Source: Candidatus Nitrospira nitrificans
GTDB taxonomy: Bacteria; Nitrospirota; Nitrospiria; Nitrospirales; Nitrospiraceae
Length of the DNA stretch: 64,000 nt
NCBI RefSeq assembly: GCF_001458775.1
Contig: NZ_CZPZ01000001.1
Location: 372,001-436,000, forward strand
Reading direction: 5' to 3'
The notes under the pieces: model-generated
What the model saw: the letters and a program-made list of their open reading frames with translations, nothing else
What the model was told of the DNA's origin: nothing
Databases searched by the model: none
Part shown: one piece after another, positions 9,167 through 21,735 of the stretch
How positions within the stretch are numbered: position 1 is the stretch's first letter
Layout of the letters: each line of letters starts with the position of its first letter
Made by a program: the position numbers and the translations under genes

Positions 9167-10675
9167 TTACTTCGGATTGACCGCGACAAACAGACTGTTC
9201 CCTTGCCGATTGACCAACAGCACGGCAAGTTCGTCTTTTTTGATCTTTTCCGCGGCCTTTTGATAATCGCCGAGCGTCTTGACCGGCTCGTGATTGACTT
9301 CTTGGATGACGTCACCACGCTGGAGCCCGGCTGCCTCTCCCGGCCCACCCGGTTCCACGGAGGTGATGACGACTCCGGCCGTCTTCGAGGAAATGTTCAA
9401 CTGACTCATCAACGCGTTATCCAACGTTTGGACACGCAACGACGCGAGTACATTGTCCGGAAGCTTCATCGTTTCGCCCGCGTCTTTCGGCGGCGCCGAA
9501 TCTTTTTTGGCCAGCAGTTCATCCGATGGGCGTTCGGCGACCTTCACCGAAATCAGTTGCTCCTTGCCTTCGCGCAACACTTTGACCTGTGCGTCTTTTC
9601 CGACCATGGTTCGTGCGACAAGATTGCGCAGCTGACTGACGCTCTGCACCTCCTTGCCGTTAAAGGCCACGACGACATCGCCGCGCTTCACTCCCGCGGC
9701 ATGAGAAGGGCCATTCTCATTGACATCGCTGATCAACACCCCCTTCCGCTGCTCCGGGAGTTTGAACGATTTCGCCAAGGCCGGCGTAATTTCCTGGATC
9801 GCAACACCCATCCATCCACGGACGACCTTGCCCGTCTTCTGCAGGCTATCTACGATATCGAGGGCGATGCTGCTGGGAATCGCAAACCCGATCCCTTCCG
9901 ATCCGCCGGTTCTCGAGAAGATCGCGGTGTTGATGCCGATCAGATCGCCATTCATGTTGACGAGCGCTCCGCCGGAATTTCCCGGATTGATCGCCGCGTC
10001 GGTCTGAATGAAATCCTCATAGTCCGCAATGCCGACATTCCCCCGCCCCAGGGCGCTGATGATGCCGAGCGTGACGGTCGAGCTCAGGCCAAACGGACTT
10101 CCCACCGCCAGCACAAGATCACCGACTTGTAGTTTTTCATACTCCGCCCATTTCAGCGACGGCAGATCCTTGGCCTCAATCTTGATGACCGCCAAATCCG
10201 TCTTTGGATCGGTGCCCACCACCTTTGCCGAAAACTCGCGCCGATCGCTGAGGGTCACCGTAATCTGCGTGGCTCCTTCAACGACGTGATTATTGGTCAC
10301 GATGAACCCATTGCCATCCAAGATGACTCCGGATCCCGCACTCTGATCCGGGCGGCCATGCGGCTGGGGTGGACCATGTGGGCTTGGCGGCGGAGTCGGC
10401 AATTCTCCACCTCCCGGCTCATCCCCAGGGGGAGGGGTCCCGAATGGATTAGGAGGCATTCCCCCGCGTCTTCGGCTCCCTTCTCCTCCACCCGTCACCG
10501 CGATATTTACGACAGCCGGGGTGGTCTTTTTCACGATCTCCGAAAAACCCTGAGCCCAGGCCGGAGGGACACCAGCAGCTGAGACGGGTGATACGCATCC
10601 ACTTCCGACAAGAGCACAGACGGCCAAGCCACCACCGATAAGCATGTTCGTCGCTTGCTGAGTCCAATTGACCAT
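9167..10675 (-). CDS. Periplasmic serine protease DegP/HtrA (Do-like)
   Basis: A 502-residue exported protease-chaperone. The order is a signal peptide (ALVGSGCVSPVSAA region), a Pro/Gly-rich linker (about residues 80-115), the trypsin-like domain with catalytic His (VTNNHVVEG), Asp (KTDLAVIKI) and Ser (NPGNSGGAL), then two PDZ domains. It would degrade or refold misfolded envelope proteins. The ATG at 10675 has GGAGG 8 bases upstream and is preferred over an in-frame start at 10738. It lies upstream of tatC, separated by a short tandem repeat, and may be co-transcribed. Confidence 0.93.
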   Translation of the reverse strand: MVNWTQQATNMLIGGGLAVCALVGSGCVSPVSAAGVPPAWAQGFSEIVKKTTPAVVNIAVTGGGEGSRRRGGMPPNPFGTPPPGDEPGGGELPTPPPSPHGPPQPHGRPDQSAGSGVILDGNGFIVTNNHVVEGATQITVTLSDRREFSAKVVGTDPKTDLAVIKIEAKDLPSLKWAEYEKLQVGDLVLAVGSPFGLSSTVTLGIISALGRGNVGIADYEDFIQTDAAINPGNSGGALVNMNGDLIGINTAIFSRTGGSEGIGFAIPSSIALDIVDSLQKTGKVVRGWMGVAIQEITPALAKSFKLPEQRKGVLISDVNENGPSHAAGVKRGDVVVAFNGKEVQSVSQLRNLVARTMVGKDAQVKVLREGKEQLISVKVAERPSDELLAKKDSAPPKDAGETMKLPDNVLASLRVQTLDNALMSQLNISSKTAGVVITSVEPGGPGEAAGLQRGDVIQEVNHEPVKTLGDYQKAAEKIKKDELAVLLVNRQGNSLFVAVNPK

Positions 10676-10698
10676 ATCTGAATTCCTCCAGGATGTGA

Positions 10699-10713
10699 CT
10701 CTCATCGAGAGTG
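10699..10713 (-). promoter_or_regulatory. Inverted repeat in the degP leader
   Basis: ACTCTC-atc-GAGAGT (6/3/6, perfect) lies 24 bases before the degP start. It may be a binding site or a leader hairpin. No consensus heat-shock promoter was identified with confidence. Confidence 0.3.
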
Positions 10714-10941
10714 CTAATGAGAACGAGCATCTCCACACAGTGAACGCTTCATATTACACCACTCTTTCAACAGGCTTCAAAGAGGAAAAGTCCCTTTACG
10801 AGCAAAGTCCGTCATGAGAGAGATCTAATCAAAGACCTTCTCATCGCCCCAAAAACATCCATTCAACTCATACCGTCCTACCAGCCGGACAGTTGCCTTT
10901 CATCTGATGTTTCCAGTACGGTGGCGGGCGGCCGCAGCGAA

Positions 10942-12804
10942 ATGATCACCATAGGCCATGCGGTGATTTCAACAAAACGACTCCATCATACCAGGCATGT
11001 CAGGCTTGTCACGGGGGCGGGGATCGCCTGCCTGTTGCTCCTCGCCGCTTGTGTCAAACCTCTGGAATTGCCTCCACTGGGGGACCCGTTGCCCGCCAGC
11101 GCCAAGCTGGACATTGCCCCATCGATCAAAGACTTGACGATTCGTTATAGCGATTCCTGCGGACAGCTTCAGGAAATTCCGCTGGGCGATCGACTCCAGG
11201 AGGCCGTCCGGGAGGGCATTCGGCGAACGTTCACTACGACGGTAGACGACGGCACCGACGACACCACCACACCAGACTATAGCATCCATGTTGATCTCGT
11301 CGATTCATCGTTCGACCTCAACAAGGAGGCCCTGTACGACCGAGCCCCGGCGAACATACAAGTCAATGCCATTGCCCGCATCTCTGATCGAAAAGGGACG
11401 TTGCTCCGTCAAGCGGACATCAAAATCGCCCGTCAGGAACGGTTGCGGCTTGAACAGCTCTCCAAAAACTGCAACTATCTGATCGACCCCTTCATCCGCG
11501 ACACCGTTATCGATTTTGCCACGCGCGTCTCGCTGAATGCCAGACAAGCGGCCGGTGGCCAGGAACCCGCTGCTTTGATAGAGCCGAGCCAGGCCCCGAT
11601 AGAAAACTTGAGAGCGCCTTCGGCTTCCATCTCGCCGAATCTTCAATTCAAGGCAACGCTCCTCGACGAAAACAGCAACCTGATCTTTGAAGGGGGCGAG
11701 CATATCCGCGTACGCGTGGATATCGTCAACACTGGGACAAGCCTGATCGACCAGGCATCGGCCTCGCTCTCCGGCACGCCGACCATCATTGAACGGTTTC
11801 CCGCTTCAACCTTGAAGATTCCACCTCTGCAACCCGGTCAAACGAAATCCCTGGAGTTCATCGCCACCCTGCCCACGACCAAGCAGGCCCATCAGGCCCT
11901 GATCCAGGTCACGGTCGCTGAATCGGGAGGAGCCGCGGCGCCGCCCCAATCCCTTTCCTTGACCATTCAACCGGCCGGTACCAACCAGGACGATGTGAAC
12001 CAAATTCCCGCCCTAGCGCCTGGTTTCCACCGGCCTCAAACCTACCTCGTCTCGATCGGGGTCGGAGCCTATCGCGATCCAAAACTCACGCCACGCCGTT
12101 ACGCCGCGATGGATGCGGAGACCGTCGCCGCCTATTTTCAATCGCTCGGCGGTGTGCCCTTGCCCAATATCCGGCTGTTGCACGACCAGAAGACTCTCCG
12201 CGCCGATCTCCATGAAACATTGTTCGGCTGGCTGCCGACGCACGCGGCCAAGGATGCAATCGTAATTGTCTATTTCTCGGGACAAGCACTGGTGACGCCG
12301 ACCGGCGACGTCTTGCTCGCTCTTTATGATGGCAGTGCGGCGGACTCGGCCCGCCTCTACCCGCTCAATGATCTGGAATCCGCCTTCGCCAGGCTCAAAG
12401 CCAAACAGGTCCTCTTTCTCTTCGACGGCAGGGTGTCCAGACTACGCGGCGAGACTAAAGGGAAGACCGCGGCACCCCGCTGGGAACTCGCCGGAAGCAA
12501 TACGGTCGGACTGATCGGAGGCGAAGACTTGACGAAGGGACTGGAAGACGACCAGCATCGCCACAGTCTCTTCACCTACTACCTCTTAAAAGGACTCCGA
12601 GGAGAGGCCGATACCAACCGCAACGGAACCGTCACATTCGGAGAACTCGCCGGCTACGTGCGCCAAAAAGTCGCCTGGGCGGCGAAATCCCGGTTCAATC
12701 AGGAGCAACGGCCCTTGCTGCTTCCCCCGCTCACACCGGACGACCCAGCCGCCTCACTGATCCTGACTGCCCTGCCTTCGCTTAGCTCTTCTGAACGGCC
12801 GTAA
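10942..12804 (+). CDS. Lipoprotein with degenerate caspase-like (C14) domain
   Basis: About 620 residues. A signal peptide with lipobox LLLAAC comes first. Residues about 50-200 form an uncharacterised domain, and 235-330 an Ig-like/CARDB-like domain (VRVDIVNTG...LQPGQTKSLEF). Then comes a peptidase C14 fold: TYLVSIGVGAYRDPKLTP, DAETVAAYF, and VIVYFSGQ. In caspases the last motif is SGHG and the second is DACxSG; here Gln stands for His and FDGRVS replaces the Cys motif, so both catalytic residues seem lost. An EF-hand-like loop (DTNRNGTVTFGEL) follows. GTG at 10921 is an alternative start. The function is unknown. Confidence 0.75.
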   Translation: MITIGHAVISTKRLHHTRHVRLVTGAGIACLLLLAACVKPLELPPLGDPLPASAKLDIAPSIKDLTIRYSDSCGQLQEIPLGDRLQEAVREGIRRTFTTTVDDGTDDTTTPDYSIHVDLVDSSFDLNKEALYDRAPANIQVNAIARISDRKGTLLRQADIKIARQERLRLEQLSKNCNYLIDPFIRDTVIDFATRVSLNARQAAGGQEPAALIEPSQAPIENLRAPSASISPNLQFKATLLDENSNLIFEGGEHIRVRVDIVNTGTSLIDQASASLSGTPTIIERFPASTLKIPPLQPGQTKSLEFIATLPTTKQAHQALIQVTVAESGGAAAPPQSLSLTIQPAGTNQDDVNQIPALAPGFHRPQTYLVSIGVGAYRDPKLTPRRYAAMDAETVAAYFQSLGGVPLPNIRLLHDQKTLRADLHETLFGWLPTHAAKDAIVIVYFSGQALVTPTGDVLLALYDGSAADSARLYPLNDLESAFARLKAKQVLFLFDGRVSRLRGETKGKTAAPRWELAGSNTVGLIGGEDLTKGLEDDQHRHSLFTYYLLKGLRGEADTNRNGTVTFGELAGYVRQKVAWAAKSRFNQEQRPLLLPPLTPDDPAASLILTALPSLSSSERP

Positions 12805-12844: not shown

Positions 12845-12883
12845 TTGCAGAATGGGAAAACCGATGGTATATTTTATACCATG
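12845..12883 (+). promoter_or_regulatory. Promoter and operator of the vapBC pair, overlapping the start codon
   Basis: TTGCAG (12845-12850), a 17-base spacer and TATATT (12868-12873) form a good sigma-70 promoter. A perfect dyad ATGGTATA-ttt-TATACCAT (12864-12882) covers the -10 box and the start codon at 12881. Transcription would begin at or next to the ATG, giving a leaderless message; no ribosome site is visible. The dyad is the likely autoregulation site of the antitoxin. Confidence 0.65.
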
Positions 12884-13144
12884 AAAACAACCATCGATAC
12901 TGCTGGGCGTTTGGTGATCCCTAAGGAATTGCGGCAAGAAGCAGGACTTCAGCCGGGCACCGAGCTGGAAATCCGTTGGCGACAGGGACTGATTGAAATC
13001 GAGCCGACGCCGCTTTCCGTTAAACTGAAGAAACGTGGCCGGTTCCTTGTCGCGATGCCGAATCAGCCGATCGAGCAACTCCCGAAGGAGACCGTCGAGC
13101 GGACACGTCGGCAACTCACCCGCGACAGAGCAACCTCCTCCTAA
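12881..13144 (+). CDS. AbrB/MazE-fold antitoxin (VapB-type)
   Basis: An 87-residue protein beginning MKTTIDTAGRLVIPKELR, the SpoVT/AbrB swapped-hairpin DNA-binding motif (D-x-x-G-R-L-V-I-P), followed by a basic C-terminal half that would wrap the toxin. It should neutralise the PIN-domain toxin downstream and repress their shared promoter, whose operator overlaps this start codon. The toxin gene begins 6 bases after this stop. Confidence 0.88.
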   Translation: MKTTIDTAGRLVIPKELRQEAGLQPGTELEIRWRQGLIEIEPTPLSVKLKKRGRFLVAMPNQPIEQLPKETVERTRRQLTRDRATSS

Positions 13145-13150
13145 CCTCAT

Positions 13151-13585
13151 ATGGGTAGCTTTCTCCCCGACACCAGCGTTATGGTCGCCACGGTGTGCAC
13201 GTGGCATGAGCATCATGAGCGAGCCATTACGGAGATGGAGCACCGACTTATGGAGCGGGAATCCCTGGTCATCGCCACGCCCGCCTTGGTCGAAGCTTAC
13301 GCCGTACTCACCAGACTCCCGCCGCCTCATCGATTGTCGCCGCAGGACGCGATCGCTCTCATCGAGACCAGCTTTCTCACAGGAGGAGCGCTCGCAGGCT
13401 TGGACAACAAAGCCTTTCGTCCGCTGCTCAGAGAGGCAGCCGACCACAACATAGCAGGTGGTCGAACCTATGATTGGGTGATCGCAGCTTGCGCTAAGGC
13501 CGCGCGCGTCAAAACCTTACTTACTTTCAATGCGCGGGACTTTCTGAGCTTTCATCTGGACGGCATCGACATTCGCATCCCTTAA
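13151..13585 (+). CDS. PIN-domain ribonuclease toxin (VapC-type)
   Basis: A 144-residue PIN domain. The conserved acids are visible: the first Asp in FLPDTSVMV, Glu in PALVEAYAVL, the third Asp in TYDWVIAACA and the last polar residue in LLTFNARDF. VapC toxins cut RNA, often initiator tRNA, rRNA or selected tRNAs. It is coded 6 bases downstream of its antitoxin. No frameshift or loss of catalytic residues is seen, so the pair looks active. Confidence 0.88.
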   Translation: MGSFLPDTSVMVATVCTWHEHHERAITEMEHRLMERESLVIATPALVEAYAVLTRLPPPHRLSPQDAIALIETSFLTGGALAGLDNKAFRPLLREAADHNIAGGRTYDWVIAACAKAARVKTLLTFNARDFLSFHLDGIDIRIP

Positions 13586-15276: not shown

Positions 15277-17115
15277 TTATTGGTTACTAACCTGCAGCTG
15301 AATACTCCCCGTATCAGCCATCACAGGATTGATTGTAACGGTGTATGTGTCTGTTGAAGCCAGTGTGACAGGGTTGAGGGTAAAGCTCGATGCTGAGCTC
15401 GTCATCCCGGCTTGCAGAATACCGTTCGGACCATAGAGACTTACGGTCACGTTGCCGAGCTTATTGTTCGTGACCTTGATCGTGGCCTGTTGACTCGTGG
15501 TGCCCGAAAACGTATACCGCCCATTCTGGCCGGGGCGGCTGAGCGTGATGGGCCTAGGTGCCGTGTTCATCTTTATTGAATCCGAAACCTCGGTCGAGAG
15601 AGTCAACGTCATGTTGCCCGTGTAGCTACCGACCGGATCGACGAGAATCGTGTACGTACCGGTCGTCGGCAAGGGGTCTTGGTCTTCGAGCCCGCCGCCG
15701 GCGGTACCGACAGCGGTCGAAGCTAAGATGGTCCCCTCCGATGTCATAAGCGTGACGGAGCTGGATGTAATACTCACGGACGTAAGTCCAAGGTTGACCC
15801 ATTGCCCGGCCTTGCCGTTAAACGTATAACGAGCCGTCTGGCCCGGCTTGGTGATACTGACCGGCACGGCTGGTCCATCAAGCCCGATCGTGGCGGTGAT
15901 CGGAGAAGAAAGGGCCAGCGTCATGCTGCCGGTATAGTTGCTGACCGGCACCACAACGATACTGTACGTCCCCGTTACAGGCAAGGCTGTCAAAGGATCG
16001 AGACTACCGCCGCTCGGACCGATCGTCGTCGACTCCCACTTGCTGCCGTCCGGCTTCATGATCAATACCGTACTCATGGGAATTGACACCTTGGTCACAC
16101 CGAGATTGACCCATTGGCCAGCCGTTCCGTTAAACGTATAGCGCGCCCGTTGGCCCGGCACAGTCAAAGCCGGCGTGACCGTCACTTGGTCGGTTATGGT
16201 ACCGGTCAACTCCGGAGCGTTATAGAGCGCGAGCTTGGCCCTCCCGATATAACTCAGATCCGGATCAACCAGGACAGCATAGGTCCCGGAAGTCGGAAGA
16301 GCCTGTCCCGGAATCATGACACCCCCGCCGGCAAATGAGAGCGGCTGGCTCAGGAGAGTCCCATCTGGTTGAATGATTGAGACGGTACCACTTCGAATGG
16401 TCACATCGCTCAGCTGCAAACTCACTACTTGCCCGCTGGTACCCGAAAAGGTATACCGAGCGTTCTGCCCTGGTCGGTTGAGGGCAATCGGCACCGCCGG
16501 ACCGTGAGGCATTATTTCTCCACTCAGCTCGCTTGAAACGTCGACAGTGACACTGCCGGTGTAATCGCCCGCTGGATCGAGCAAGATCGTATAGGCTCCG
16601 GTTACCGGCAGTTCGACGAGGTCAATGCTACTGCCGTTTATCTCGCTGGCAGAGATCCAATTACCTGTCGAATCGCCGGTCGTCAGGTAGGATGTGGCGT
16701 CTGGAAGAACCTGGGTCTGTGTGGAGAGTGGCCGAGTGCCCATAGTCGCATAATACTGTTTTATCGCGGACTGTTGAGCGCTCACTATGCCGCCATTGGG
16801 TTGATACACTGTAACCTTGAACTGCGTAAGGCTGGCGCCGTTAAAACCGATACTGACCCTCTGGCCGGCCGTTCCGTCGAAAAGGAGGACGGCTTTTTTC
16901 TTTGCGCTGGTAATGGTGGCTTTGACAGGTTCTCCTCCAACTACAACCTGACCCTTGTATTCGACGTCCTTAGCCGAGACACCAGGCGGTACAGCACTTT
17001 CTCCAGCGTAACTCGTACCGGAGTCGGCACTCCACATACCTCCAGCTGATACAAGCGCAAGCGATAACGTAACCACTGCTTCGCGGAACTTCACCCACGG
17101 CCATAGGCTGTCCAT
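15277..17115 (-). CDS. Exported protein of five PPC-like beta-sandwich repeats
   Basis: A 612-residue protein with an N-terminal export signal (about residues 10-37). It then has five tandem units at about 61-195, 206-297, 310-403, 417-507 and 521-610. Each begins with a RPGQxARYTFxGTxGQ strand and ends with LPxTGTYxIxVDPxxxYTGxMTL, the pattern of bacterial pre-peptidase C-terminal (PPC) domains. The first unit carries an extra 40 residues. No enzymatic domain is present. PPC domains are usually accessory parts of secreted hydrolases, so a protein made only of them may be a surface or matrix component. Repeats 3 and 4 are most alike, which suggests recent duplication. Confidence 0.82.
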   Translation of the reverse strand: MDSLWPWVKFREAVVTLSLALVSAGGMWSADSGTSYAGESAVPPGVSAKDVEYKGQVVVGGEPVKATITSAKKKAVLLFDGTAGQRVSIGFNGASLTQFKVTVYQPNGGIVSAQQSAIKQYYATMGTRPLSTQTQVLPDATSYLTTGDSTGNWISASEINGSSIDLVELPVTGAYTILLDPAGDYTGSVTVDVSSELSGEIMPHGPAVPIALNRPGQNARYTFSGTSGQVVSLQLSDVTIRSGTVSIIQPDGTLLSQPLSFAGGGVMIPGQALPTSGTYAVLVDPDLSYIGRAKLALYNAPELTGTITDQVTVTPALTVPGQRARYTFNGTAGQWVNLGVTKVSIPMSTVLIMKPDGSKWESTTIGPSGGSLDPLTALPVTGTYSIVVVPVSNYTGSMTLALSSPITATIGLDGPAVPVSITKPGQTARYTFNGKAGQWVNLGLTSVSITSSSVTLMTSEGTILASTAVGTAGGGLEDQDPLPTTGTYTILVDPVGSYTGNMTLTLSTEVSDSIKMNTAPRPITLSRPGQNGRYTFSGTTSQQATIKVTNNKLGNVTVSLYGPNGILQAGMTSSASSFTLNPVTLASTDTYTVTINPVMADTGSIQLQVSNQ

Positions 17116-18310: not shown

Positions 18311-19231
18311 CTACCGCTTCAACACGATGTCGCGGGCGACTTTGCCGCTCGGACCGAAGGGCTTTTGAGGTTTGCCGTTTAATTCGGCCTTGACTCCACC
18401 GGCGTTCCCAAGGGTCAAGATGAATTGGTCCTGTCCCTTCCAGTGGGCTTTTTCACCAGGCCGTAGCAACGATTCCTGAGGACTTCCGTTATCAATCTGT
18501 ACCACGACCCAGCTCAACTCTGTCGCTTCCAAATCCAATGCCAGCTGGCCATCCCCAACACTCTCCGTGGCGTTCAGCGCAATGCCAGCTAACGGGCCGT
18601 CGCTGCCGGGAGAAGCCGTCGAAACCGTTTCCGCCTCTGATCTCACGGCTACGCCGGCGGGTGTGACAGATTCCTGTCTCGGCGGGGCTTCGGTCGTGGT
18701 CTTCACCGTTCCGGAAGGCGTCTCGATCGGTTTCAGCACCTCGGCAGTATGTTCGGGCTCACGGGTTGTTGGGGCCGGCATCTCTTTTGCCGTTTGAGTC
18801 GTGCGTTTCGTCGTCGGACCTTGCTCGGCAGCCCCACGTCGAAAGACCGACGATTGTTCTCTGCTGAGGAGAAAGATCAGCGTCAGGACGGCGATACTGA
18901 TGGCAATCGTCACCGCTTTCCGATTGGACTGGCGTTTCCGGTCTTCTTCAATCTGTCGCACCTTGAGCCGTTCACGTTCGTCCTGTTTCTCGTAAAACGA
19001 GCCGGCAGATTGAATAAACCGGTGAATCGCATCTTCCTCATCCAAGCCCAGCGATCGGGCGTAGGAACGGACAAACCCCTTGGCAAAGACTTGGTCGGGC
19101 AACTTGGCGAAATTCCCGTCCTCGAGCGCCTTGACGAAATCCGTGCGAATGCGGGTTTTTGAGGCCACCTCATCAACCGTCAACCCTTTCGTCTCCCGGA
19201 CTTGCCTGAAAAATTCGCCGACCGACTCCAT
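18311..19231 (-). CDS. rodZ: Cell-shape protein RodZ-like (HTH, membrane segment, DUF4115)
   Basis: A 306-residue protein. An N-terminal HTH of the Xre/RodZ type (VGEFFRQVRETKGLTVDEVASKTRI, in part) occupies residues 1-70. A basic stretch precedes one membrane segment (about 107-123), then comes a Pro/Thr-rich linker and a C-terminal DUF4115 beta domain (ELSWVVVQIDNGSPQESLLRPGE). RodZ couples MreB filaments to the elongation machinery. It is the last gene of the long minus-strand array and starts behind AGGAG. Confidence 0.88.
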   Translation of the reverse strand: MESVGEFFRQVRETKGLTVDEVASKTRIRTDFVKALEDGNFAKLPDQVFAKGFVRSYARSLGLDEEDAIHRFIQSAGSFYEKQDERERLKVRQIEEDRKRQSNRKAVTIAISIAVLTLIFLLSREQSSVFRRGAAEQGPTTKRTTQTAKEMPAPTTREPEHTAEVLKPIETPSGTVKTTTEAPPRQESVTPAGVAVRSEAETVSTASPGSDGPLAGIALNATESVGDGQLALDLEATELSWVVVQIDNGSPQESLLRPGEKAHWKGQDQFILTLGNAGGVKAELNGKPQKPFGPSGKVARDIVLKR

Positions 19232-19238
19232 AAGTCTC

Positions 19239-19922
19239 CTACTTCACTCGCGTCAAGAGGTCCGCTGCAGCCGCCGCCGACTCTCCACCACCCTTATCCA
19301 AGGTGGCCACTTTTTTCAGAATATCACGGGCTCTGGCCGTATAGCCCATTTTATAGTACACCCGACCGAGCTCAAGATGAGTCATTGCGGGTGGAACACT
19401 GGGAGGACTCGCGGACACGGCGTCTTCCAACGCCTCCATCGAGCCCTGAAGATCGCCCTGGTGTGCGAGCGCACGGCCGAGATGGAACCGAGCGAGGTCG
19501 GGTGTCGGATAAAGAGGATTCGCCAGGGCCAGCCGGTAGGATTGAATCGCCTCCTCCCACCGATCCTGATTGGCCAAAACTTGTCCCAGATACGTATGCG
19601 CTTCGGAGTAGGTTTCATCGGTTTTAATCGCCGCGCGAAATTGCTCTTCCGCGTGGGATAATTTGCCTTGCAGCGCATACACGTGTCCCAGAGCGTACCG
19701 TGCCTCTTTATTGGCCGGATCCAACTGCACGGCCTTCTGGAACGAGACGAAGGCCTTTTGACGATCTCCCGGAAGGCTGGCGACACCCTCTTGATAATGC
19801 CCTTGCGATTTTTGCACCAGGTCTTTGTCGGTCGCACACCCTCCCAATACACTCAGGAGTCCGACACAGATCAGCGGGGGATAGGCTCGCCACCGACCAA
19901 AGGACCGATCGCATCCGGTCAT
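19239..19922 (-). CDS. TPR lipoprotein (PilW/PilF-like)
   Basis: A 227-residue lipoprotein with lipobox SVLGGC followed by about five tetratricopeptide repeats (for example AFVSFQKAVQLDPANKEARY and AEEQFRAAIKTDETYSEAH). This resembles PilF/PilW pilotins that assemble type IV pilus secretin, but no other pilus gene is near, so a general scaffold role is equally possible. Its ATG overlaps the stop of the pfkB gene by 4 bases, and rodZ starts 7 bases downstream. Confidence 0.8.
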   Translation of the reverse strand: MTGCDRSFGRWRAYPPLICVGLLSVLGGCATDKDLVQKSQGHYQEGVASLPGDRQKAFVSFQKAVQLDPANKEARYALGHVYALQGKLSHAEEQFRAAIKTDETYSEAHTYLGQVLANQDRWEEAIQSYRLALANPLYPTPDLARFHLGRALAHQGDLQGSMEALEDAVSASPPSVPPAMTHLELGRVYYKMGYTARARDILKKVATLDKGGGESAAAAADLLTRVK

Positions 19923-20833
19923 CGAACATCCTCAAAGTGCGTGAGCCGCTTAAACTCGGTGAACCGAGCCTGAATCTCTTTGTAATCCAGGATTCGTAAT
20001 CGGTCAAGACTAAAGGATTCTACGGTAAAGGACGCCATCACGCTCCCAAAGATGATGGCTTGTCGCATGGCCTCCGGAGACCGGTTTCCGGTCGCCGCCA
20101 AGTAGCCCAAAAATCCGCCGGCAAAGGTATCGCCGGCGCCGGTCGGATCCCGTACGTCTTCGAGCGGGAAAGCCGGCGCGCCGAAAATCTGTTGGTCGTT
20201 GAACATCAGCACGCCGTACTCGCCCCGCTTGACGATGAGATGCTTGGGCCCTCGGGACAGCACGAGCTTCGCCACTTTCATCAGATTGGAATCCTGGCCC
20301 AATGCGCGCGCCTCACCATCGTTGATGATCAGGACATCCACCTTCTCCAGCACCTTCCAGAGCGCATCGCGCTGGCCGTTGATCCAGAAATTCATGGTGT
20401 CGCAGGCTACCAACGCAGGACGTTTCACTTTGTGCAACACGTCGAGTTGAAGCTCCGGATGGATATTCCCCAGGAACAGCACGTCCGGCGCGAGATAGTC
20501 TTCAGGAATCTGAGGACGAAACGTTTCAAACACGTTGAGCTGGGTATCCAAGGTATGGGCTTCGTTCAGCTGGTGCGTGTATTCCCCCTTCCAGCGAAAG
20601 GTTGCCCCCGGGCGCCGCTCGAGCCCCGCGAGATCGATTCCACGGCTCTTCAGAAACGCGATATGCTGTTGGGGAAAATCCTCGCCGACGACGGCGATCA
20701 GCGCGACGGACGTGAAGAAGCTGGCCGCCGTCGAAAAATAGGTGGCCGACCCTCCGAGAATCTCGGTGCCTTCGCCGAACGGAGTTTTGACTGTATCGAG
20801 CGCAACCGATCCCACGACTAACAGCTTTCCCAT
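19919..20833 (-). CDS. PfkB-family sugar or nucleoside kinase
   Basis: A 304-residue ribokinase-fold enzyme with the N-terminal GGSATYFSTAASFF substrate loop and the C-terminal DPTGAGDTFAGGF catalytic signature, in which Asp of GAGD is the base. The substrate is not certain. It follows the methylthioadenosine phosphorylase gene by 2 bases, which suggests a purine nucleoside or a methylthioribose-related sugar. Confidence 0.85.
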   Translation of the reverse strand: MGKLLVVGSVALDTVKTPFGEGTEILGGSATYFSTAASFFTSVALIAVVGEDFPQQHIAFLKSRGIDLAGLERRPGATFRWKGEYTHQLNEAHTLDTQLNVFETFRPQIPEDYLAPDVLFLGNIHPELQLDVLHKVKRPALVACDTMNFWINGQRDALWKVLEKVDVLIINDGEARALGQDSNLMKVAKLVLSRGPKHLIVKRGEYGVLMFNDQQIFGAPAFPLEDVRDPTGAGDTFAGGFLGYLAATGNRSPEAMRQAIIFGSVMASFTVESFSLDRLRILDYKEIQARFTEFKRLTHFEDVR

Positions 20834-20835
20834 GA

Positions 20836-21735
20836 CTAACGGATTCCTTTCTTTGGTGACAGGGCACGGTCAATGAGGAGGGAGAGTTTCTTCCGCGCAG
20901 CTGACGGAATTCGGTTCGGCGCCGTCAGAATGGCATGATCCAATGCCCGATGACAAGGACAGTCCATCGGATGAGCGAAGGACGGCATCACCGCGCGTAG
21001 TATCTGTTTAGCCAAGGCGACGTTACGATGGAGCGTCCCCAACACCGCCTCCACGGTGACCGCCTCTTCTGTCTCATGCCAACAGTCATAATCGGTCACC
21101 AGCGCCAAGGTCGCATAACAGAGCTCCGCCTCACGAGCCAATTTCGCTTCCGGCATATTGGTCATGCCGATCACATCGACGCCCCATTGCCGATAGAGCC
21201 GCGATTCCGCTTTGGTTGAAAACTGCGGCCCTTCCATGCAGAGATAGGTCCCACTGCGATGCAACGTGGCGCCGACCCTTTCTCCGGCCGACAGGAGAAC
21301 CTGTGTCAATTCGGCACAAACCGGCTCGCCGAAGGCGACATGCGCCACAATTCCATCATCGAAAAATGTGGAGACCCGTCGCTTGGTCAGGTCGATAAAC
21401 TGGTCCGGCACCACGACGTCGCCTGGGTGAATCGATTCCTTCATGCTGCCGACCGCGCTGACCGAAATCACATGGGACACCCCTAGCGACTTGAGCGCGA
21501 AAATGTTCGCGCGATAGTTGATCCCGCTCGGATTCAACAAATGCCCGCGCCCATGTCGCGAAAGAAAGGCGACCCGAATCCCTTCAAGCGAGCCCACGGT
21601 AATCGCATCGGACGGCGCGCCGAAGGGTGTCCGGACGCGGATCGAGCGAGTGGAAGTCATCCCTTCAATGTCATACAGTCCGCTGCCTCCGATCACCCCG
21701 ACGGTCACCGGCTTGTCCTGTTGTTTTCTCTTCAT
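20836..21735 (-). CDS. mtnP: S-methyl-5'-thioadenosine phosphorylase
   Basis: A 299-residue purine nucleoside phosphorylase of the MTAP branch: IGGSGLYDIEGM, LSRHGRGH (phosphate site), LCMEGPQFSTKAES, MTNMPEAKLARE and VTDYDCWH. The Asp in DYD favours 6-aminopurines such as MTA. It splits methylthioadenosine from polyamine and quorum-signal synthesis into adenine and methylthioribose-1-phosphate. It lies in a run with miaA upstream and a PfkB kinase downstream. Confidence 0.92.
   Translation of the reverse strand: MKRKQQDKPVTVGVIGGSGLYDIEGMTSTRSIRVRTPFGAPSDAITVGSLEGIRVAFLSRHGRGHLLNPSGINYRANIFALKSLGVSHVISVSAVGSMKESIHPGDVVVPDQFIDLTKRRVSTFFDDGIVAHVAFGEPVCAELTQVLLSAGERVGATLHRSGTYLCMEGPQFSTKAESRLYRQWGVDVIGMTNMPEAKLAREAELCYATLALVTDYDCWHETEEAVTVEAVLGTLHRNVALAKQILRAVMPSFAHPMDCPCHRALDHAILTAPNRIPSAARKKLSLLIDRALSPKKGIR

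Follow-up and report, generated by a model that had tools for sequence, protein, structure and literature searches.

Nitrospira lipoproteins carrying a caspase domain with a substituted catalytic dyad

Background

Bacterial pseudo-orthocaspases, p20 domains in which the catalytic dyad is substituted, have been described as forming conserved clades that largely keep the acidic S1 pocket, with Gln-Cys, Tyr-Ser and Tyr-Asn among the other dyads listed (Klemencic et al. 2019, PMC6426788). That account centers on Alphaproteobacteria and Cyanobacteria, and the word Nitrospira is absent from its main text as available. A survey from 2012 (Asplund-Samuelsson et al., PMC3501461) gives a metacaspase density of 1.11 per 1000 proteins for Nitrospirae, the highest named there, together with 57% dyad conservation among the Nitrospirae homologues, so that dyad loss in this group is already in print; the accessible part of the survey provides no domain architecture, clade or ancestry for these proteins. 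Neither pseudo-caspases in bacteria nor the frequent absence of the dyad in Nitrospirae is therefore new. The open-licence papers searched included none that, by its title or the start of its abstract, treats a caspase, metacaspase or peptidase C14 family in Nitrospira, and nothing to the point on pseudo-caspases in connection with the periplasm or on orthocaspases in connection with calcium or EF-hands.

Several better characterized proteins resemble parts of the one described here. The paracaspase MALT1 also combines Ig-like and caspase domains but, unlike the protein studied here, is an active protease not known to be lipid-anchored. The PqiC and XCC0632 (DUF330) proteins are likewise lipoproteins and share the N-terminal fold, although PqiC lacks both the Ig and the caspase part. 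Closer at hand, other Nitrospirota encode Ig-plus-caspase lipoproteins (L099:4188-6014 and L097:17554-19899) that are among the nearest intact relatives but differ in having an intact His-Cys dyad and in not being matched by the profile of the N-terminal domain.

Here we analyze a gene within a 64,000-nucleotide stretch of the Candidatus Nitrospira nitrificans genome (the window), which an earlier note made from the letters alone had read as a lipoprotein pseudo-caspase with Ig-like and EF-hand-like parts. Its product shares with pseudo-orthocaspases the C14 p20 fold, a substituted His-Cys dyad and membership of conserved clades, and may share with them a largely kept acidic S1 pocket; it differs from them, as far as the available text describes them, in being a lipoprotein with PqiC-like and Ig-like domains and in belonging to one order-wide clade with the dyads Gln/Met-Arg-Lys-Thr, Arg/Ser, Asn/Ser and Gln/Pro. 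Whereas bacterial pseudo-caspases are usually seen as scattered variants beside active ones, here the dyad seems to have been lost once and long ago, purifying selection acts on the dead domain, and a metal-type loop has outlasted the catalytic residues. The family offers a natural system for asking why a caspase fold is kept once it is unable to cut, in abundant nitrite-oxidizing bacteria and in a genome with no detected active caspase to regulate.

Results and discussion

Domain layout of the lipoprotein

The gene has two candidate start codons, an ATG at 10942 that yields 620 aa and a GTG at 10921 that yields 627 aa, and the product comprises, from its N-terminal side onward, a lipobox, a PqiC-like domain, an Ig-like domain and a caspase domain (Table 1). 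With a signal peptide and a lipobox Cys the product qualifies as a lipoprotein, and the column of Cys37 is Cys in 50 of 50 aligned full-length members of the clade; a lipobox-like pattern precedes it in 41 of 52 rows, with Asp at the +2 position in one of the 52. Cys73 and Cys177 are also kept in all 50 aligned full-length rows, and the joint retention of these three residues would fit a lipid-anchored protein with a disulfide in the periplasm. A scan for promoters and terminators returned three promoter-like sites, none on the forward strand just upstream of the gene.

Table 1. Positions in the window of the lipoprotein gene, its parts and selected neighbors
Feature	Position	Strand	Remarks
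Divergent DegP/HtrA-family serine protease	9167..10738	-	TIGR02037 above cut-off
Pseudo-caspase lipoprotein gene	10942..12804	+	620 aa and a stop codon; start at either ATG 10942 or GTG 10921
Signal peptide with lipobox LLAAC	10942..11052	+	Cys37 codon 11050-11052; from sequence
N-terminal domain, residues 50-206	11089..11559	+	PqiC/XCC0632-like fold; contains Cys73 and Cys177
Ig-like domain, residues 232-346	11635..11979	+	Fold matches
Caspase (C14) domain, residues 364-597	12031..12732	+	Catalytically dead; Pfam PF00656, structure matches, alignment
Asp391	12112..12114	+	Proposed N-side Asp of a basic-residue S1 pocket; putative equivalence from motif
Gln448, at the catalytic His position	12283..12285	+	Alignment
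Asp495-Gly496-Arg497, replacing Asp-Ser-Cys	12424..12432	+	Arg497 at the catalytic Cys position; alignment
EF-hand-like loop DTNRNGTVTFGE, residues 557-568	12610..12645	+	Between two predicted helices
RodZ-like gene	18311..19231	-	Part of conserved downstream neighborhood
PfkB	19919-20833		Downstream in window
Phosphorylase-family gene	20836-21735		Downstream in window

A full-length model, built from 16 Nitrospira sequences, is of modest confidence overall (mean pLDDT 62.2), with values mostly of 70-89 by block in the N-terminal domain. Alignments A1 and A4 likewise contain 16 sequences out of a possible 19 (the window and 18 named loci), the broken or partial copies at L045, L047 and L048 being left out. 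In VIA-align comparisons, the first fold match of residues 38-210 was XCC0632 (2iqi, DUF330; Z 12.8, rmsd 3.5, 151 residues aligned), which places the N-terminal domain in the PqiC/DUF330 fold. Unlike PqiC, the protein has no DUF330-type family among the five that Pfam gives over its full length at E up to 10, under filters that drop weak matches, and no MCE partner gene was seen next door. Residues of about 228-345 gave Ig-like fold matches (Z about 11-12), bearing out the Ig-like part that had been proposed, and Pfam CARDB scored just under its cut-off (20.2 bits against 22.7). Residues 361-595 of the same model matched MALT1.

Membership of the C14 family is indicated by the caspase fold and by the Pfam Peptidase_C14 profile, which covers residues 372-593 with 30.2 bits (cut-off 21.4, E 4.4e-7); the NCBIfam model NF047832 (caspase, EACC1-associated) reached 49.3 bits, far under its curated cut-off of 140. 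A model restricted to the caspase domain, also of modest confidence (mean pLDDT 60.5, pTM 0.69), found MALT1 as its top structural match (3v55, Z 17.5, 205 residues aligned), and the MALT1, metacaspase, caspase and legumain structures among the matches listed scored Z 15.5-17.5. Foldseek with this model also ranked MALT1 first (E 7.1e-7); with the full-length model it returned mostly low-TM Ig-type matches that are uninformative. A search by sequence gave no solved relative, only weak unrelated matches (NOP5/NOP56, E 0.006). The predicted domain resembles the caspase fold beyond chance despite the modest confidence of the model.

Loss of the catalytic dyad

The motifs IGVGAYRDPKL, DAETVAAYF and VIVYFSG, from which a caspase-like fold had been recognized, are all present in the reading frame. 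The dyad positions were assigned from the alignment, in which Gln448 (the Gln455 of the frame read from 10921) stands in place of His and Arg497 in place of Cys, flanked by the conserved residues YFSG and FDG respectively. The segment FDGRVS, as had been suggested, occupies the place of the Cys motif, which in dyad-intact relatives is D[SAT]C[FY][SG]G; this sets Arg497 at the Cys position. With no His-Cys dyad the protein is not an active caspase, metacaspase or orthocaspase; it has a p20 domain with a substituted dyad, as pseudo-orthocaspases do. Taken with the lipobox and the C14 score, this upholds the description as a lipoprotein pseudo-caspase. A hidden His-Cys pair elsewhere in the fold, a possibility that had been raised against this reading, is excluded, since residues 364-597 contain no Cys at all.

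The substitution extends well beyond the window. Cys was found at the dyad position in none of 80 sampled clade members, and 44 of the 45 rows of the window's own subfamily (A) have no Cys anywhere in the caspase domain. In subfamily A the His position holds Gln in 36 rows, His in five and other residues in four, while the Cys position varies widely (Met 19, Thr 6, Lys 6, Leu 4, Asn 3, Ser 2, others 5) and is never Cys. A second subfamily (B), with a member in the window's genome at G000:C32, has Arg and Ser at the two positions in 21 of 21 rows. The dyad is Asn/Ser in five and Ser/Ala in one of the six f2 rows, and the eight f3-type rows have Gln (6) or His (2) at the first position and Pro (7) or Gln (1) at the second.

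Retention of a metal-type loop and acidic residues

The EF-hand-like part of the earlier description stands in one respect and fails in another: the ligand pattern of DTNRNGTVTFGE is present, with D557, N559, N561 and E568 at positions 1, 3, 5 and 12, whereas Pfam EF-hand_1 scores 12.9 bits, far under its cut-off of 25.4. The loop is flanked by predicted helices at residues 537-555 and 566-584 (DSSP of the model, where pLDDT is 57-70 by block and confidence low). It is complete in 79 of the 80 dead rows (A 44/45, B 21/21, f2 6/6, f3 8/8), or in 73 of the 80 if Gly is required at position 6. The same complete loop occurs in all six rows of a TPR-type C14 protein and in 10 of 23 dyad-intact rows, and further intact rows with the pattern were seen beyond the 23 counted. 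We therefore rejected the loop as a hallmark of the window protein, to which it is not special. As the rows are related to one another, the row counts given here and below are not independent and are inflated by kinship.

Two acidic residues have also largely been kept. The column of Asp495, just before the Cys position, is Asp or Glu in 79 of the 80 dead rows, and the column of Asp391 is Asp in all 23 intact rows, 43 of 45 rows of A (the other two being gaps), 21 of 21 of B, six of six of f2 and two of eight of f3, where the alignment is doubtful. In TbMC2 the pocket residues are Asp95 and Asp211 (PMC6426788), to which Asp391 and Asp495 appear to correspond by motif.

Ancestry and selection

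In a quick tree of 109 of the 136 domain rows (duplicates and those with fewer than 175 residues were dropped), computed with the two dyad columns removed, the 80 dead rows form one clade with SH-aLRT support of 99. A more careful tree held 104 rows, 60 dead and 44 intact, after removal by a hand-made list of near-duplicates of subfamilies A and B and of all but one TPR-type row, and after loss of rows shorter than 170 residues or above E 1e-10. Here 59 dead rows fall in one clade (bootstrap/SH-aLRT 100/99) nested among dyad-intact rows, the nearest of which, L139:5119-6498 and the two Ig-plus-caspase lipoproteins named above, group with support of 96/72; long branches were flagged within the tree set. 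The position of the dead rows as one clade among intact relatives implies one ancestral loss of the dyad, followed by division into several subfamilies. Together with the universal loss of Cys and the prevalence of Gln in subfamily A, this answers the comparison of homologues that had been proposed, and disposes of the alternative that the window protein is just one diverged copy.

All rows read from families outside the order are dyad-intact, namely 20 from L097-L103 (one a repeat) and 11 from L120-L130, which are a sample of the matches and not a census, the same-class matches in G151 and G168 lying outside this reading. The TPR-type C14 proteins, in which His is kept and Cys has become Pro, are placed elsewhere on both trees, and their dyad loss is separate from that of the main clade. 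We rejected the idea that the N-terminal domain was gained together with the dyad loss, as the link is not clean: the N-terminal domain profile matches none of three intact Ig-plus-caspase relatives, but it does match part of the intact caspase L136:389-2815 (E 2.5e-6, residues 344-400).

Pairwise dN/dS was estimated among 15 Nitrospira sequences, using only pairs with dS of 0.05-1.5. The caspase domain has a median of 0.16 (79 pairs), the lowest of the four parts compared; values were 0.43 for the signal, 0.21 for the N-terminal domain, 0.60 for the linker and 0.22 for the Ig-like domain. Within the caspase domain the ratio is 0.20 for residues 364-500 and 0.13 for residues 501-597. The dead caspase domain is under purifying selection.

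Distribution and other C14 genes

A match to the protein was found in 35 of the 39 nearest genomes, the four without one all belonging to one family. Among 23 genomes of the genus, the window's included, subfamily A is present as a full-length open frame in 15, is broken or truncated in five (G002, G005, G007, G009 and G019), is a fragment in G015 (a genome 54% complete), and was not found in G020 and G022. The broken or truncated copies show that the lipoprotein is not indispensable. In G002 and G005 the N-terminal and Ig parts are kept with no caspase part in the stretch fetched, so that these two genomes do without the caspase domain and it is dispensable there. Subfamily B occurs in 22 of the 23. 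Window-type genes are also full-length and open in other genera and families, and across a sample of the phylum 93 of 198 genomes gave a match, many in the caspase part only and dyad-intact where read.

The window's genome (99.77% complete, 36 contigs) has C14 homologues at three places, all dyad-dead: the window gene (Gln/Arg), a gene on contig C32 (Arg/Ser) and one on contig C4 (His/Pro). No dyad-intact C14 gene was detected there by a family search, a search with an intact caspase or a search with an intact-caspase profile. The family search gave two places and missed the window gene, and so was not exhaustive; the other two returned the same three places, the profile also matching places through its ankyrin-like N-terminal part alone, and an intact gene on sequence missing from the assembly could escape all of them. 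Elsewhere in the genus 73 of 79 other genomes have a C14 match, and 25 of 30 fetched loci show a His motif of the SGHGSN type, with the Cys motif seen in six of the 25, a count limited by alignments that stopped early in the remaining loci.

Some further arrangements were noted. Broken or truncated copies lie at L014, L017, L019, L020 and L007, two of which break off close to the Ig/caspase boundary, and short tandem copies with a lipobox-like stretch and an Ig part but no caspase adjoin the main gene at L035:7887-9227, L082:2457-3218 and L083:4099-4866. The second dead C14 type, with TPR repeats, is found at L034:7946-9349 (reverse strand) and also at L032, L033 and L091; in some genomes it lies directly downstream of the window-type gene and convergent to it, whereas the copy in the window's genome sits on a different contig (G000:C4:74533-75204, L087). 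In other Nitrospirota (L097, L099, L100, L101 and L103) several dyad-intact C14 lipoprotein-like genes occur in tandem runs.

Possible roles

We put at about even chances the proposal that the protein is an envelope-anchored, non-catalytic platform for docking or sensing, which draws on the lipid anchor, the ring-forming relatives of the N-terminal fold, the Ig spacer and a caspase fold under selection without its dyad. It would be exported by Sec and probably anchored in the outer membrane, facing the periplasm, with a PqiC/PelC/LptE-like domain, an Ig-like spacer and then a caspase domain predicted to be devoid of protease activity. That domain keeps its fold and a calcium-type loop, and three of the four subfamilies seem to keep the acidic residues with which active relatives hold a basic P1 residue. 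Its partner may be a peptide or a protein, possibly with an exposed Arg or Lys and possibly bound in a calcium-dependent manner, and such binding could let the lipoprotein act in the envelope as a platform for docking or sensing. In crystals PqiC and XCC0632 assemble as octamers and PelC as a dodecamer, and LptE shares the fold of PqiC (PMC10897342). By analogy, we would guess that the N-terminal domains assemble as a ring. LptE is not known to form a ring, which counts against this analogy. It is a good deal more doubtful that a single ancestral loss of catalysis gave rise to an order-wide family of calcium-tuned, outer-membrane and possibly ring-forming peptide receptors, which then split into several subfamilies, with some genomes, the window's included, retaining only dead caspases.

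It is also conceivable, if unlikely, that the function resides in the N-terminal PqiC-like and Ig domains, the protein being for instance a lipoprotein accessory to a transporter that spans the envelope, and that the caspase domain merely persists as a tolerated remnant or serves as a structural cap. The two genomes that keep the N-terminal and Ig parts with no caspase match in the fetched stretch, and the lipobox-plus-Ig copies beside the main gene, fit this well; that the caspase domain has the lowest dN/dS and retains its loop does not. Outright decay of the gene, to which the broken copies in five of 23 genomes might point, has very little to recommend it given the dN/dS of 0.16, the clade-wide retention of the loop, and the full-length open frames in 15 of 23 genomes and in other genera and families. 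There is even less reason to expect a peptidase acting through other residues: subfamily B does offer a Ser at the Cys position in all 21 rows, but in the window protein this residue is Arg and the His is replaced by Gln, and in subfamily A the Cys position varies freely.

Two other explanations would make the protein a regulator. Control of an active caspase, as by cFLIP in animals, has precedents among pseudo-caspases (PMC6426788, in the text available) and possible targets in the dyad-intact C14 proteins of other genomes of the genus, yet it is improbable for a genome in which the three C14 homologues found are all dead. Slightly less improbable, but still a long shot, is that the protein controls the DegP/HtrA protease encoded divergently beside it, or hands substrates to that protease. 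In 18 of 18 named MAG loci TatC and DegP are found upstream in divergent orientation, whereas DegP adjoins the gene in one of 13 wider loci (L104-L116) and is absent even from L115 and L116 of the same genus; we rejected DegP as a deep functional partner since the adjacency is confined to part of the genus. Gene order alone is no proof of function.

Other genes at the locus

In the 13 wider loci, the side on which DegP would lie carries a carbamoyltransferase-like gene in 11 and a 513-aa gene without a Pfam match in 12, and the other side a cytochrome c-like gene in nine, RodZ in 10, a TPR protein in 11 and PfkB in eight. The carbamoyltransferase homologue of the window's genome is not at the locus but at G000:C1:299800-301593. 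At L107:7728-9266 the 513-aa protein stands beside a carbamoyltransferase homologue of the NodU type. In the window, the pseudo-caspase gene is followed at 12845-13585 by a pair encoding a MazE/AbrB-like antitoxin and a PIN-domain toxin, which occupies the same place in L036 and L046, while L039 and L042 have a portion of the antitoxin. Further on, at 15277-17115 on the reverse strand, lies a gene whose 612-aa product contains internal repeats and a single match to the PPC domain; it is conserved downstream in several loci.
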